This document shows positions 2,696 through 6,997 of a stretch of 31,588 nucleotides of DNA, piece by piece. The position numbers were made by a program, and so were the translations under genes. The stretch's first letter is position 1; each line of letters begins with the position of its first letter. Under the pieces are notes generated by a model. The model saw only the letters and a program-made list of their open reading frames with translations, ran no database searches and had not been told where the DNA came from. Source of the DNA: a virus; IMG/VR virus record IMGVR_UViG_3300030380_001708, positions 1-31,588 of that record; one strand, given 5' to 3'.

Positions 2696-3868
2696 TCAAT
2701 ACAAATAATATTCTCCTCTGTTTGGGTTTTCTAATACCATCATAATACAATAACGAGCAGCGTCAATAGCGTGGTCGCCATTCATAGAGTTTGGTTTCTG
2801 TAGGGTGTTACCTTGTTTGTCTTTCATCCATATATAACCTTCTAATTCTTTTTTTAGGTTTTTACTTCTTCTTGTTACAAATACTTCATTTTGGTTAATT
2901 AAGTTAATTCCATATATAATAGAGTCTTTGCCTTTAGTAACTGGGAATATGTCGTGTCCATAACTACGTAATTCTGCTATTGACTTTGGCTCTGCTGAAT
3001 CAGCATATATATAACCCATTAAATTGTTGTTTAAAATAAAGTTGGATATATCACTATTAAGCATTTTATTCCTGTATAATACTTCATCAAATATGTAACT
3101 GTCATTGTATTTATATAATGCTACAATTGATGTACTGTCTACGCTGTAGCCAAAGTCCATTCCATAACCCATTAATCGTGCTTCATTTGGAACTATTTCA
3201 ATTTCTTTCCACGCTGGAATACAAGCACCCTCTAAACTTCCTATTTGCCCAAGTCCGTAAACTTTCCACCAGTTTGCCCAATAAGTTGAAGTCTTTGCTT
3301 TTTCCCTGTTTTTTTCTAATTCATCAATAATAGTTTGTGGCAATACATCATTGTCTTTATAAGTCAGAGTAATAAAATCAGTGTTAGGTTGATTTATTAA
3401 TTCTTTATCTACCCAAAATAAAGTAGCTGGATTGTAGTCTAGCCAAATATCTCTGCTGGTTCTTATTGCTAATTGTTGATATGCTTCAAACGTTACATTG
3501 TTACACTCGTTAACAAATAAACAATGCCTACGAGCCCCTCGTAATTTATCTGGACTATCAGTTGAAAAAAACTCTATGTAACTACCATTACTAAATTCGT
3601 ATTTTAAGGAGCTTTTATTATAGTTGTGGGGTTTATATATACCCGTTGTCTTAAGTATGTTTAGAAAGTCTTTTAATGCACCACGCCTTAACGCTGGTAT
3701 GGTGTCAGTAACTACACTAATTTCTGAATAGGGTGTAGCTATTGCATAATCAATTAACAATGATAGTATAGCAAATGTTTTACCAGCACTCGTTCCACCT
3801 CTTACAATCTTTGTTCTGCTTTTAAGTAATGATAATTTCTTGACTGCTTTTGTGTGCGCCCATTCCAT
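2696..3868 (-). CDS. terL: Terminase large subunit (DNA packaging motor, PBSX/Terminase_3-like)
   Basis: A 390-aa ATPase-nuclease that drives DNA into the prohead and cuts it. Walker A is GGTSAGKT at residues 24-31, Walker B is CLFVNE at 116-121 (with Asn before the catalytic Glu121), and a motif III-like stretch DYNPA follows at 144-148. The C-terminal RNase H-like nuclease has acidic positions at MDFGYS (Asp238), YADSAEP (Asp290) and DHAIDAARY (Asp366, Asp369). Length and motifs are complete for the family. ATG at 3868-3866 overlaps the stop of a 26-aa ORF as TAATG, and the small terminase-like gene lies just upstream. The domain organisation fits headful or cos packaging; the type cannot be read from this alone. 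Confidence 0.95.
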   Translation of the reverse strand: MEWAHTKAVKKLSLLKSRTKIVRGGTSAGKTFAILSLLIDYAIATPYSEISVVTDTIPALRRGALKDFLNILKTTGIYKPHNYNKSSLKYEFSNGSYIEFFSTDSPDKLRGARRHCLFVNECNNVTFEAYQQLAIRTSRDIWLDYNPATLFWVDKELINQPNTDFITLTYKDNDVLPQTIIDELEKNREKAKTSTYWANWWKVYGLGQIGSLEGACIPAWKEIEIVPNEARLMGYGMDFGYSVDSTSIVALYKYNDSYIFDEVLYRNKMLNSDISNFILNNNLMGYIYADSAEPKSIAELRSYGHDIFPVTKGKDSIIYGINLINQNEVFVTRRSKNLKKELEGYIWMKDKQGNTLQKPNSMNGDHAIDAARYCIMMVLENPNRGEYYLY

Positions 3869-3948
3869 TAAAATTTGCTCATATATTTATAAGTAATGTA
3901 TTTAAGAGCTTCCCAAACAATAATTAAAATAAATGCTTTAGATATCAT
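3868..3948 (-). CDS. Tiny single-span membrane protein between terminase genes
   Basis: A 26-aa ORF: MISKAFILIIVWEALKYITY and six more residues. It starts inside the end of the small terminase-like gene (11-base overlap) and its TAA overlaps the ATG of the large terminase (TAATG), so it fills the only gap in this operon. One hydrophobic segment (AFILIIVWEAL) followed by a basic end predicts a small inner-membrane peptide. Function unknown. Position and exact overlaps are the main evidence for it being translated; it might serve only to couple translation of the two terminase genes. Confidence 0.5.
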   Translation of the reverse strand: MISKAFILIIVWEALKYITYKYMSKF

Positions 3949-4273
3949 CGTAAGTTAAGTTTGGAAATAAGCGTGGTTCTTCATTAACAGTAATGTCTTT
4001 ACTTTCTTTTGGTTTACCATAAACTGAGTTCATTAAAGCATCATATGCTCTGACATCACCTTGCCTTGCTTTTTTTAAAACTGCTAGTGTCATTATATCT
4101 TCCTGAGTTAAATCTTCATACAAACCAGTTATCGGGTTTTTAGATTTCTCTAATGTTTCTAACCATCGTTTTGCTATACTGCTTCTGCTAAATGCTCCAA
4201 CTGGTCTGCCTAATGGATTACCGCTTTGTCCTTTTTTAAATTGATGCTTTTTTATATTTTCTTCGTTTGCCAT
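3938..4273 (-). CDS. Terminase small subunit-like protein (DUF5681-type)
   Basis: A 111-aa protein that starts with FKKGQSGNPLGRPVGAFS, the hallmark of the DUF5681 family often found directly before large terminase genes in phages and prophages. The C-terminal half is helical (EDIMTLAVLKKARQGDVRAYDALMNSVYGKP), consistent with an oligomerising DNA-recognition subunit. The ATG at 4273-4271 overlaps the stop of the ABC-ATPase/GNAT gene (TAATG). Small terminase role is inferred from family and position; the protein would recognise the packaging site and load the genome on the large subunit. Confidence 0.7.
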   Translation of the reverse strand: MANEENIKKHQFKKGQSGNPLGRPVGAFSRSSIAKRWLETLEKSKNPITGLYEDLTQEDIMTLAVLKKARQGDVRAYDALMNSVYGKPKESKDITVNEEPRLFPNLTYDDI

Positions 4274-5385
4274 TATTGTTTATATTCAAAATTATACGTC
4301 TTAACTCCTTTTTCTCTAAATCCTTTTTTTCTTAACATATTACGTCCAATAGTCAATTTTCCCATTGTTCTTTTAAAACCTAAATATTTCCAACATTCTT
4401 GTTTTATCATTGCTTTATAAACTGGTGCAGAACTAAATTTTGCCATTATGCGACAAGTTATTTTTTTAGATAATAATTTACTTGTTTCATTTATTAATTT
4501 TATTCCTAATCCCATTCCAGTATAATCTGGATGTATTACAGTTCTATTTGAATGATAAATAATTTTAGTTCCTTTTTTGTGTGGTGTATAATTAGCAAAA
4601 CATTGAAAACCTATTTGATTGTTATTATGAAATAAACCATATAAATATATTTTACCGCCCGGCAATCGTTCATTTAAATAATGATACTTGCTAAAGTATT
4701 TCCAACTTGTTCTGTCAATTTCTTTAATTTCAAATTTGAGTTGTTCCCGTTTTGTAAAAAAAAAATCTTCCGACTTTGGAAGTGTAAATTTTTGTTTGTT
4801 ACAATCAATCATCCAATCAGGATGTAACCACTCCAAAACATCTTGATGACAAGAACACAATATTATTTTTTTATTATTACGTTTAGCGTATTTATGTAAA
4901 CATAATGACATAGCTTTGGCAACAGTTCTATCCACAACTGATGTCCATTCATCTATAAAAACAATATCGTCTGATTTAGTCATTAAATAAACTGCTTCGG
5001 CTCTTGCTCTTTGTCCATTTGATAGAGTTTTAACAGGTCTTATCCAACAAGGAACAGAATTTAAACCAATACCATTTAACATTCTAGCACATTCTTCATA
5101 AGACATTTTTTTTGGTAATTGATTTATAATCGGCTCATCTTCATTTAATTTTACATCAAATATTTTATCTCCAAATAAATGTTTTATCATTGTTGTTTTG
5201 CCACTTCCACTATTGCCATAAACTAAACCAATATTCCATTCATTAGGTATTTTAATATTGTTAACTTTTAAATGATGAATTGATTTTTTTTCGACATCAA
5301 TATCTAAACTATTAGCAGCAACTTGGCATCTAAATTCTTTGTTAACATTTGATTTTAATATTACTTCAATATCGTTTGGTATCAT
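4273..5385 (-). CDS. ABC-type ATPase fused to a GNAT acetyltransferase domain (COG2401-like)
   Basis: A 370-aa two-domain protein. Residues about 1-205 are an ABC ATPase: Walker A GNSGSGKTT (57-65), signature LSNGQ (121-125), Walker B IVFIDEW (141-147) with catalytic Glu146, and an H-loop-like His180 in CSCH. It has no membrane segment, so it is not a transporter subunit. Residues about 220-345 look like a GNAT domain, with HYL at 235-237 and the acetyl-CoA loop HPDYTGMGLG at 285-294. This is the architecture of COG2401 (ABC ATPase fused to a predicted acetyltransferase). Phage Mu Mom, which hypermodifies adenine, also has a GNAT fold. The gene follows ParB by an ATGA overlap and precedes the small terminase, so a role in DNA marking, protection or packaging is plausible. 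Substrate unknown. Confidence 0.85.
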   Translation of the reverse strand: MIPNDIEVILKSNVNKEFRCQVAANSLDIDVEKKSIHHLKVNNIKIPNEWNIGLVYGNSGSGKTTMIKHLFGDKIFDVKLNEDEPIINQLPKKMSYEECARMLNGIGLNSVPCWIRPVKTLSNGQRARAEAVYLMTKSDDIVFIDEWTSVVDRTVAKAMSLCLHKYAKRNNKKIILCSCHQDVLEWLHPDWMIDCNKQKFTLPKSEDFFFTKREQLKFEIKEIDRTSWKYFSKYHYLNERLPGGKIYLYGLFHNNNQIGFQCFANYTPHKKGTKIIYHSNRTVIHPDYTGMGLGIKLINETSKLLSKKITCRIMAKFSSAPVYKAMIKQECWKYLGFKRTMGKLTIGRNMLRKKGFREKGVKTYNFEYKQ

Positions 5386-5885
5386 TGTACTATTTTAATA
5401 TTTAAATTTTCTAATTTTAATTTTTCGTACCATTCTTGAGCTTTTTCTTCCGATTCAAATTCTATATTTAAAAACCATAAATCGTTTTCAATTTCGTGTT
5501 CTTTGTCATCATCATAATGAAATTCTGGAACAGTTAAACCCCAGTCATTTAGTTCTTTGTTATCCCATTCATTGGCTAACATATCCCAATCCCATTCACC
5601 AAAACCAACATTGTCTTTTATTATGAATTCTCGCTGTTCTTTCGCTGATAATTCGCTTGCTTTAACTACATAAACTTCTTTCAATCCAGCTTCTTTACAA
5701 GCCTTTAAACGCATATTACCACCCAGCACAATCATATCATCATTCACAACGATTGGGCGTAGTTCTAACATCTTAGGAAATTCTTTAATTGAGTTAACTA
5801 ATTTCTTAAACTTAATGTCTTTAATTAGCCTTGGGTTATCTGGATTAGCCTTGACCTTTGATATTTTAATTAATTCACTTTTCAC
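5382..5885 (-). CDS. ParB/Srx-fold nuclease-like protein
   Basis: A 167-aa protein with an N-terminal ParB-like domain: ANPDNPRLI at 13-21, ELRPIVVNDDMIVLGGNMR at about 41-59 (the GGNMR replaces the usual GE/GHRR) and an AKEQREFIIKDN helix at about 81-92. The acidic C-terminus has no HTH, so it is not a full partition protein; stand-alone domains of this kind in phages are usually linked to DNA methylases or other DNA-modifying enzymes. Start is GTG at 5885-5883 overlapping the previous stop (GTGA), and its end overlaps the ATPase/GNAT start (ATGA), so the two are translated together. ParB-fold CTP or ATP use and DNA binding are family knowledge, not visible here. Confidence 0.8.
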   Translation of the reverse strand: MKSELIKISKVKANPDNPRLIKDIKFKKLVNSIKEFPKMLELRPIVVNDDMIVLGGNMRLKACKEAGLKEVYVVKASELSAKEQREFIIKDNVGFGEWDWDMLANEWDNKELNDWGLTVPEFHYDDDKEHEIENDLWFLNIEFESEEKAQEWYEKLKLENLNIKIVQ

Positions 5886-6055
5886 GAGCCACAGTTTAAA
5901 CAGTCATCATCATCTATTTCGCAAGTTCTTTCAGGACTTTTAATAGCTGACCTTATTATTGGTCTTAACTTGTTTCCTAGTTCTTGGTCATTTGGTGTTA
6001 TGCTTTCTATAAAAAAAAGGTTTCTCATTATTTCTGAGTCAGTTTCTACTTTCAC
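5882..6055 (-). CDS. Small acidic Cys-containing protein
   Basis: A 57-aa ORF from a GTG at 6055 (an ATG at 6028 would give 48 aa). It reads MKVETDSEIMRN, then a segment with PNDQELGNKLRPIIRSAIKS, and ends CEIDDDDCLNCGS, a possible metal-binding tail with three cysteines. Its TGA overlaps the GTG of the ParB gene. It fills a gap of about 260 bases otherwise empty between the 117-aa protein and ParB. No known family. Tight coupling with ParB suggests it belongs to the same functional unit. Confidence 0.5.
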   Translation of the reverse strand: MKVETDSEIMRNLFFIESITPNDQELGNKLRPIIRSAIKSPERTCEIDDDDCLNCGS

Positions 6056-6167
6056 TTTTAATTGTTTTAATGATTGATAATTTGGTTAATTCTTCTTTGT
6101 GTTTAGTTAAGTAGTTCTGTAACTTGTTTAGGTTGTTTGTTCTTTTTTTAATCGTTGTATGTATCAT
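6039..6167 (-). CDS. Small basic helical protein, hypothetical
   Basis: A 42-aa Lys-rich ORF starting MIHTTIKKRTNNLNKLQNYL and containing KHKEELTKLSIIKTIK. ATG at 6167 lies inside the last 20 bases of the upstream 117-aa gene. The predicted single amphipathic helix with a heptad-like leucine spacing could dimerise. It overlaps the next small ORF by about 17 bases. Coding is supported only by the packed arrangement of this operon and by the helical pattern. Confidence 0.4.
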   Translation of the reverse strand: MIHTTIKKRTNNLNKLQNYLTKHKEELTKLSIIKTIKSESRN

Positions 6168-6501
6168 ATAATTTTTTTACTTCATTGTATAAATCTTTAA
6201 CACAGCTACCACAACTAGATGGTTGCTTATTGGTTTTAAAAACCCTGTTATGTATATCTAGCATTTTATGCTGTTCGTCTCGTGAAATGACACTACGATA
6301 AGTTTCAAAATAATCTTTGCACCAATTGTATTCTTCTTCTGTAAGACATTCTGCTTTTTTGTAAGGAAACATCTTATTTAGTTTTTCTTTACGTTTGTCG
6401 CATCCGCAGTCTTCGCCTGCTATCCATTTAACTACCTTTTTAATTCCAGTAGCTGTTGTGAAGCGTTCAACAGTATCGCCAAAGCCTTTTTCATTTGCCA
6501 T
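6148..6501 (-). CDS. Conserved phage protein with Cys motifs, unknown function
   Basis: A 117-aa protein: MANEKGFGDTVERFTTATGI, then KKVVKWIAGEDCGCDKRKEKLN with a C-G-C pair near 32-34, an ECLTEEEYNWCKDYF helix and a second pair SCGSC near 96-100. The four or more cysteines could bind zinc. From memory this layout (amphipathic N-terminus, GEDCGCDKRKEKLN, EYN, SCxSC) is common in phages and prophages of Bacteroidota and sits beside a sigma-like factor, as here. ATG at 6501 overlaps the end of the sigma-like gene by 11 bases. No function known to me. Confidence 0.65.
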   Translation of the reverse strand: MANEKGFGDTVERFTTATGIKKVVKWIAGEDCGCDKRKEKLNKMFPYKKAECLTEEEYNWCKDYFETYRSVISRDEQHKMLDIHNRVFKTNKQPSSCGSCVKDLYNEVKKLYDTYND

Positions 6502-6997
6502 TTTCGTATTGTTTTTTTATTAGTTTTTTTATTTGGTTGATGTCGTTCCATACCGTTTTATAACTGATTTTAGTTTCCTTAGCCAGTTTGCTGATATTGC
6601 CTTTAAATTTTCTTGTATATAGTTTAAATAGTTTTTCATAGTACCAGTAAAAATTGTCAATAATAGAATCAATCTTTTCTAAGAATTGTGTTTGTTCTTC
6701 TTCTTGTGTGTTGATTAATTCGTCTTTTAATGGAAGTGTTTCTTGTTCAGTTCTGAAAACATCATTACTTAAATTAATAAGTGTTACATATATATAATTG
6801 AATTGAACTTTGCCCTCCTTTATTATTAACGTTTTTTTTATCTTTTTTTCCTTTAATTTTTGATAAATTTTTAAATACATATCTTGAACTATATCTTCAG
6901 CAGTTATTGGCGCATACATTGGCAGTCTATTTTCCACCATTAATAACCAAACAGAATGCTTTCTATATAGCTTATCTAATATTTCTGAACTTGTCAT
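6491..6997 (-). CDS. Sigma-70-like RNA polymerase factor
   Basis: A 168-aa protein with a region-2-like segment ITAEDIVQDMYLKIYQKL (about 31-48; AEDxVQdxYlK is the ECF-type pattern) and a C-terminal HTH of region-4 type, ISKLAKETKISYKTVWNDIN (about 134-153). The linker is acidic and carries QEEEQTQFLEKID. ATG at 6997-6995 overlaps the upstream stop. Such factors in Bacteroidota phages are thought to redirect host RNA polymerase to late promoters or to act as packaging/transcription regulators; which one cannot be said from sequence. It directly precedes the block that leads to ParB and packaging genes. Confidence 0.7.
   Translation of the reverse strand: MTSSEILDKLYRKHSVWLLMVENRLPMYAPITAEDIVQDMYLKIYQKLKEKKIKKTLIIKEGKVQFNYIYVTLINLSNDVFRTEQETLPLKDELINTQEEEQTQFLEKIDSIIDNFYWYYEKLFKLYTRKFKGNISKLAKETKISYKTVWNDINQIKKLIKKQYENGK

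Follow-up and report, generated by a model that had tools for sequence, protein, structure and literature searches.

In this study, we analysed a 31,588-nucleotide stretch of viral DNA (IMG/VR record IMGVR_UViG_3300030380_001708, positions 1 to 31,588; hereafter the window). One gene of its packaging region fuses an ABC ATPase to a GNAT-type acyltransferase domain. At the junction of the two domains the coding strand carries exactly 10 T, a feature absent from the earlier annotation made from the letters alone (the sequence-only reading). What is new here is the proposal that this junction is a recoding site, which would yield both the ABC part alone and the full ABC-GNAT protein. We consider it rather probable that the junction is a programmed slip site. 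The wider reading, a ParB-guided, ABC-driven acyltransferase module whose central gene would be decoded into two products, stands in our view just short of an even chance.

Homopolymer tracts and frame shifts at the ABC/GNAT junction

At E ≤1e-5 the window ABC-GNAT protein was matched by 79 phage records, and in 21 the match covered at least 80% of its length. At least 595 relatives were found in viral contigs, and genome contigs of bacteria and archaea gave 469. The loci analysed (cited by L numbers where needed) included the best 80 of the viral-contig relatives, the best 80 of the genome-contig relatives and the phage records. After 257 loci were sorted, 221 distinct ones had both domains. 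The GNAT part was in frame in 192, in the -1 frame in 25, in the +1 frame in 3 and behind an in-frame stop in 1, Tenacibaculum phage pT24 (L022). In pT24 the stop lies at 5697-5699, early in the GNAT part, and the halves are otherwise conserved; readthrough, error or decay may account for it. The -1 shifts were at the ABC/GNAT junction in 23 of 25 loci, the exceptions being L175 and L266, which are shifted elsewhere in the gene.

Among the in-frame genes, 47 of 192 had a junction run of exactly 10 (31 A10 and 16 T10), and the window is one of them. Three further in-frame genes had runs of 7 or 8, and none had 9 or 11. Where the junction peptide contains QKK, KKK or FFF, the run of 10 was unbroken in 47 of 47 in-frame genes, with no synonymous interruption. 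Codon shuffles that kept the protein and the codon usage, made on data that include loci from a scan requiring A10, gave a junction run of at least 10 in a mean of 30.3 genes (maximum 37 in 60 shuffles), compared with the 47 observed. Outside the junction, long runs were depleted: segments with a run of at least 10 numbered 1 against 6.8 after shuffling, and those with a run of at least 9 numbered 5 against 17.0. The identity of the run codons in 31/31 A10 and 16/16 T10 genes was dropped as evidence, because these sets were chosen by the run and the argument is circular.

Split relatives carry a tract of 9, 11 or 12, or one of 10 in another phase (L060), and this spread of 9 to 12 also includes loci from the A10 scan. 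A scan of viral contigs with free tract length, covering one A-tract context, was counted apart. In its best 80 of 120 stretches, 64 of 67 distinct tracts were A10 and 3 were A11, a tract being counted only if confirmed beside ABC or GNAT. One A9 tract occurs outside these best 80.

The reading frames around the tracts are arranged so that slippage would end the protein soon after the ABC part. In all 31 A10 genes the run is followed by T (codon AAT), so that a one-base gain meets a stop directly past the run in all of them. A one-base loss in the tract genes leads to a stop 29 or 30 codons downstream. For the window, the loss of one U and the gain of one U were computed to give ABC-only products of 236 and 218 amino acids, respectively. 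The window T10 thus shows, at sequence level, the pattern by which transcriptional slippage of the dnaX/mxiE type is recognised, an A/T run of at least 9 with a shift that gives a second defined product.

In the loci shifted to the -1 frame at the junction, 16 of 23 form a Firmicutes-type group that includes Lactococcus P335, Streptococcus Javan141 and MismyG, and Oenococcus Vinitor-27. Sixteen sequences were read for codon and stem, with L112 included and L126 left out; L114-L120 and L130 share one overlap sequence, which was counted once. L112 is interrupted in the GNAT part and was classed as +1 by the script, and its junction resembles the -1 group. A scan of genome contigs with an ABC alignment of this group gave no match. 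The codon preceding the spacer, in the A site at the proposed slip, was TTT or CCC in 16 of 16 sequences. A stem folds a few bases downstream in 15 of 16, with z ≤ -2.9 in 11 of 16, and its arms are, for example, CCCCAC/GTGGGG or GCCCAC/GTGGGC. The 3' arm lies in one of two registers, a split made after inspection, so the pair counts that follow lean towards structure. For the first register, pairing was seen in 93.3% of cells (31-46% in the slid controls) and changes on both sides in 6 of 10 pairs, a value that 0 of 500 shuffles reached. In the second register 98.4% of cells pair, against 30-54% when slid. In this group the start of the GNAT profile match lies before the ABC stop, and the GNAT frame has no ATG, GTG or TTG from its opening to the H-Y motif in 15 of 16 distinct -1 loci (all but L122).

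A FastTree phylogeny of the ABC domain was built from 218 loci. The T-run genes formed one clade of 15. The A-run genes and the Firmicutes-type group fell together in a set of 55 loci (support 73), whose single plain member is L062. L060, L030, L031, L022 and L266 stood apart on the tree. By count, three arrangements are well populated, namely the T tract, the A tract and the stem type.

Domains of the protein and its gene neighbourhood

The sequence-only reading had described an ABC ATPase-GNAT fusion that overlaps a ParB gene by ATGA, and the gene coordinates (Table 1), Pfam matches and ATPase motifs confirmed it. The ABC part matched ABC_tran (9.4e-7, 30.0 bits against a cut-off of 25). It keeps the conserved columns that we take to be Walker A (G57, S59, G60, G62, K63), the signature (L121, S122, G124), Walker B (D145, E146) and the H-loop (H180) of ABC ATPases, all of them invariant in 79 aligned sequences. 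No transmembrane partner for the ATPase was found among the neighbour genes scanned, in a scan that was not exhaustive.

Table 1. Features of the window (minus strand) and formyltransferase-like open reading frames (ORFs) in related loci
Feature	Position	Strand	Remarks
ABC ATPase-GNAT fusion gene	4273-5385	-	370 amino acids, ATG start
ABC part of the fusion gene	about 4810-5385	-	Pfam, alignment
GNAT part of the fusion gene	about 4276-4746	-	Pfam, structure model
T10 tract at the ABC/GNAT junction (U10 in mRNA), where slippage is proposed	4756-4765	-	A10 on + strand
Stop reached after one-base loss or two-base gain in the tract	4674-4676	-	ABC-only product of 236 (237) amino acids ending ..LASIII
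Stop reached after one-base gain in the tract	4730-4732	-	ABC-only product of 218 amino acids; coordinates by arithmetic
ParB-like protein	5382-5885	-	167 amino acids, GTG start, ATGA overlap with ABC-GNAT start
DUF5681 protein, candidate small terminase by position only	3938-4273	-	111 amino acids
Terminase large subunit (TerL)	2696-3868	-	Terminase_3C 1.4e-15
Acidic 57-amino-acid protein, three Cys	5882-6055	-	GTGA overlap with ParB; no convincing relative; probably outside the unit
Formyltransferase-like ORFs	L027 6044-6517, L028 1823-2473, L029 5984-6601		Directly after ABC-GNAT
Formyltransferase-like ORFs at ABC-GNAT end	L241, L247, L250, L255, L256, L258, L264, L265		

For the C-terminal part a GNAT fold had been suggested. 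A structure model of residues 206-370, built from a 68-row alignment (pLDDT 86.8, pTM 0.80), confirmed this fold. Among the fold matches listed, all were GNAT-type acetyltransferases (best Foldseek E 8.5e-6; VIA Z 14.9 to 1y9k). An alignment-free model of the whole ABC-GNAT protein (pLDDT 33) was not used. The Acetyltransf_7 match of the window GNAT part (3.2e-4, 21.4 bits) was under its cut-off of 27, and the general GNAT models of Pfam (Acetyltransf_7 and Acetyltransf_1) matched 64 of 68 members at E ≤0.1. The CoA motif G-x-G-x-G is kept, as P-D-Y-x-G-x-G-x-G.

The suggested kinship with Mu Mom stood only in part. Mu Mom (8bv8) is among the fold matches with a Z of 13.4, level with ordinary GNATs. 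An hhalign comparison with Mom (probability 28, E 6e-4, 72 columns; six rows on the Mom side and no control family) aligned the H-Y motif. The Pfam Mom model (PF25680) gave the window GNAT part 18.7 bits against a curated cut-off of 27.1 and matched 14 of 68 members at E ≤0.1, the best at E 0.0015. As the window score is below the cut-off, Mom was rejected as the parent family. This half of the window protein belongs to the GNATs and not to the Mom family, although its first part shows some Mom-like traits. A true Mom (194 bits) and an ABC-GNAT gene occur together in Aeromonas phage PX29 (GU396103.1), at distant positions (36312-36908 and 53140-54318).

On the minus strand of the window the genes run from the ParB-like protein through ABC ATPase-GNAT and DUF5681 to the large terminase. 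The ParB-like protein matched ParB_N at 1.9e-5 (25.0 bits, just under the cut-off of 26.3). Its TIGR00180 score of 20.3 bits lies below the cut-off of 58.45 for canonical ParB partition proteins, and no ParA partner gene was found among the 19 window proteins scanned. The survey of related loci upheld the linkage that had been claimed for ParB. Of 198 distinct loci whose upstream DNA was long enough, 145 had a ParB-like ORF immediately before ABC-GNAT (phage records 9/17, viral contigs 89/109, genome contigs 46/71, plus the window), counted when the ORF ends -150 to +60 nucleotides from the start of the ABC match. The profile was built from 12 proteins of 10 surveyed loci, which count by construction; a smaller ParB count gave 104 of 131 loci. 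ParB was upstream in 48 of 48 loci with a tract of 9-12 bases, compared with 80 of 128 plain loci, in counts uncorrected for relatedness. The short C-terminal tail of the ParB-like proteins (5382-5480 in the window, for example) appears alike by eye in distant members, and is perhaps a small added domain.

The terminase, also claimed as a neighbour, was beside ABC-GNAT in many loci and not in all. A TerL gene followed in the same orientation, no more than 6.5 kb away, in 37 of the 67 loci that had 4 kb of downstream sequence; this is a lower bound because the TerL profile was made from nine proteins. The order ParB-like, ABC-GNAT, terminase was found in Pasteurella Pmp13, Leptospira LE3, Streptococcus Javan141 and MismyG, Lactococcus P335 and Gordonia BiggityBass. 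The ParB of P335 is annotated as 'unknown' and was judged ParB-like from its sequence, and the ParB-like protein of BiggityBass has no Pfam match. No ParB was found beside the ABC-GNAT gene in P12024S, vB_VmeM-32 and PX29. Current records name the two halves of the protein 'iron siderophore transporter' and 'hypothetical protein', or set the GNAT start too late.

Going by gene content, the 31.6-kb virus record covers all or a large part of a temperate tailed phage, since integrase, portal, tape-measure and amidase genes are present. A 'small terminase' had been placed after ABC-GNAT. A gene does stand there; its product matches DUF5681 (1.6e-14), and its role as terminase small subunit is a guess from position. 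The small Cys-rich protein upstream of ParB had been counted as a third partner. Mu Com is a small zinc-finger protein of the mom operon, and a Com-like role for the Cys-rich protein was rejected because the loci held no convincing relative. This protein had no Pfam or PHROG family match at the limits used and gave a weak ferredoxin match in NCBIfam (E 0.021, 15 bits against a cut-off of 65). By tblastn at E ≤1 against the fetched loci, in which many close relatives have little upstream DNA, only the protein itself and a 25-residue match at E 0.84 were returned.

A formyltransferase-like ORF, chosen by an HPS-x-LP motif, lies at or overlaps the ABC-GNAT end in 11 loci (10 of 204 with 700 nucleotides downstream, plus L027). 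These loci span several phyla and are found in Porphyromonas, Pseudomonas and Gordonia phages and in Bacteroidales, Rikenellaceae, Alphaproteobacteria, Rhizobium, Microbacterium and Helicobacteraceae contigs. The three ORFs tested matched PF00551 at E 7.1e-10, 3.2e-17 and 4.3e-11 (phrog_9240). In a tree clade of 12, five of the six names listed carry the gene. This partner hints that the acyl group may be elaborated.

Some relatives differ in other ways. Pseudomonas phage nickie (L034) has separate ABC and GNAT-like genes (4968-5606 and 5925-6806) behind two ParB-like genes. Its GNAT-like protein was recognised by eye and has no Pfam match, and the PHROG 886 label 'ABC transporter ATP-binding subunit' looks misannotated. 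In Gordonia phage Jace (L024), the ORF at 6101-6526 after ABC-GNAT is annotated as aspartate decarboxylase and had no PHROG match at E ≤0.01. In a Treponema metagenome-assembled genome (L213, 3358-4768), the ABC-GNAT match spans 1411 bases, compared with the usual 1000-1100, and may hold an insert.

Proposed mechanism and alternative explanations

In the lineage of the window, RNA polymerase or the ribosome would slip on U10. Plain reading would give ABC-GNAT, and slipped reading would reach a stop in about 30 codons or fewer, leaving only the ABC part. A10 would act in the same way as U10 in the A-tract relatives, and tracts of 9, 11 or 12 A would exchange the two roles. In the Firmicutes-type genes, a -1 frameshift near UUU (or CCC), usually with a stem after it, would give ABC-GNAT, and unshifted reading would give ABC alone. 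A10 and T10 suit slippage by RNA polymerase, and the stem suits the ribosome. The ABC-only and ABC-GNAT subunits would both be needed, probably as mixed ATP-sandwich dimers. The ParB-like protein would bring the mixed dimers to phage DNA, where, ahead of packaging, the GNAT arm would acylate a base with acyl-CoA as donor and thereby protect against restriction. For this last step, with a base of phage DNA as the target, we see the chances as evenly divided. A broader generalisation is doubtful. It would hold that widespread phage DNA-hypermodification machines set their ABC-only/ABC-GNAT ratio by recoding (U10/A10 slippage or a stem-assisted -1 shift), that the ABC dimer loads the acyltransferase at ParB-marked sites just before packaging, and that a formyltransferase-like partner adds a group in one branch, giving a base modification not yet described.

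A number of observations weigh against two-product decoding and the DNA target. The run enrichment largely follows the amino acids used, as the shuffled mean of 30 of 47 shows, and the tract sequences are related, so that 47 stands for fewer than 47 independent events. An A10/T10 tract was found in no named phage record or isolate genome. All 77 distinct loci among the best 80 of the 469 genome-contig relatives are in frame with no long run. An isolate with the tract was sought in the phylum to which L265 (titled Bacteroidales) belongs; its 395 genomes gave 3 relatives at E ≤1e-20, 32-39% identical and none close. On the tree, 144 of 218 loci have no tract or shift, so two products would not be general; plain and recoded forms need a minimum of 8 changes, several of which are single loci and weak evidence. 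In the stem type, only 2 of 9 pairs of the second register are changed on both sides, and 360 of 500 shuffles reach as high. RNAalifold on all 17 junctions pooled missed the stem, L033 has no stem (z +1.05), and the conserved P-R and E-W encoded in the -1 frame put their own codon constraints on the stem arms. A canonical heptamer stands at the proposed codon only in L122, L125/L126 and L128, or 3 of the 16 sequences read. Most of the group has N GTT TTT, with poor P-site re-pairing. Canonical heptamers also occur further down the overlap in several loci, so that we can only propose where exactly the slip would take place. A split at the junction is also seen in Enterococcus 9184 (A AAA AAG) and Thomasclavelia TR-TP2, which have start codons in the overlap. 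For DNA as the target, the pointers are two, the gene neighbourhood and the partial likeness to Mom.

For the tract genes, the main rival is phase variation, in which the tract would be a contingency locus and replication slippage would switch the GNAT half between phage individuals with no programmed second product. Tract lengths of 9, 10, 11 and 12 do occur, with GNAT in different frames, and long runs are likely to be hypermutable by replication slippage, to judge from the available part of PMC1088944. However, within the clade scanned the length is nearly fixed, exactly 10 in 64 of 67 tracts among the matches listed, unlike free switching, and most of the Firmicutes-type group keeps its -1 layout without a long run, mostly with a stem. 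We consider phase variation unlikely. Still less likely is that the frame breaks are homopolymer sequencing or assembly errors or mark dying genes, and that the tract is a by-product of A+T-rich coding. The A/T-tract loci do come from viral contigs, L175 and L266 are shifted away from the junction, L112 is interrupted in the GNAT part, and shuffles alone reach 30 of the 47 on average. Yet the -1 layout recurs in separately deposited phage records of three genera, 23 of 25 -1 shifts fall at one junction, runs of at least 9 are depleted elsewhere in the same genes, and both halves are conserved. The least probable explanation, to which we give very little weight, is that of two coupled genes, with the GNAT half of the split loci re-initiating at the ABC stop. 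P335 and Vinitor-27 are annotated with such a start (5663 in L020 and in L033), and nickie has its ABC and GNAT-like proteins in separate genes. A start at the ABC stop would nevertheless remove the conserved first part of GNAT with the H-Y motif, and 15 of 16 group loci have no start codon upstream of this motif in the GNAT frame.

A further alternative touches the substrate: GNAT may acylate a protein or a small molecule (terminase, portal or a host factor), not DNA. Fold and profile searches both place protein or amine acetyltransferases (RimI, Naa50, SpeG and others) at the top, with Mom not above them, and 8 of 17 phage-record loci with enough upstream DNA have no ParB there. Set against this are the ParB linkage and the proximity of the terminase, a region where DNA-modifying genes gather according to the available part of PMC6536676, and the weak Mom profile match over 72 columns with H-Y aligned. 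We regard a target other than DNA as somewhat unlikely, and as a stronger competitor than any of the three explanations above.

Comparison with known systems

Base modification by ABC-GNAT pairs is already predicted in print, and the idea of the sequence-only reading was in large part a rediscovery. As far as the available sections go, PMC7824862 predicts an acyl modification of a nucleobase for GNAT plus ABC ATPase and names phage pT24. According to PMC6536676, modification genes are sited between ParB and terminase, and ParB may direct them as the DNA is packaged. Both papers credit Iyer et al. 2013. The predicted ABC-GNAT system of this ParB-Tls locus, as set out in those sections, resembles the window in having ABC and GNAT with a ParB-like protein upstream and a terminase downstream, and the pT24 of PMC7824862 is one of the relatives found here. 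Recoding, a junction tract and a formyltransferase partner do not appear in the available sections of the two papers; Iyer et al. 2013 stood outside this comparison. No report of recoding in ABC-GNAT genes was found in the literature searched, as far as its accessible text goes. In its available part, the GeneTack survey (PMC3711429) books frame transitions of ABC transporters mostly as translational coupling, and inclusion of the ABC-GNAT family is not evident there. The present analysis makes the sequence-based prediction of 2013 testable, as the subunit ratio is measurable and culturable phages exist (P335, LE3/LE4).

Compared with Mu Mom, the ABC-GNAT proteins are alike in the GNAT fold and, by hhalign, in the H-Y near the domain start and the following R. 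They differ in being fused to or beside an ABC ATPase, in keeping G-x-G-x-G and in scoring below the Mom cut-off, and by eye they lack the other residues invariant in six aligned Mom proteins. Fusions of a ParB-CTPase fold with an acetyltransferase, as far as described in the available part of PMC12704722, also show a ParB-like domain working with an acetyltransferase, and one bacterial fusion bound GTP only. Here, in contrast, the two are in separate genes and the acetyltransferase is joined to an ABC ATPase.

The closest parallel for the decoding itself may be dnaX, as both would draw a long and a short ATPase product from one gene. In E. coli, the tau and gamma products of dnaX are made by a -1 ribosomal frameshift. 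In Thermus, the available part of PMC1088944 reports transcriptional slippage on A9. As in dnaX, relatives of the ABC-GNAT gene carry either a frameshift signal or a homopolymer run. Unlike dnaX, ABC-GNAT is a phage gene with an unrelated ATPase, its products are predicted, and its plain reading differs between lineages. If both products are made, this would be dnaX-like recoding in a phage DNA-modification or packaging enzyme, apparently by two mechanisms at the same junction.

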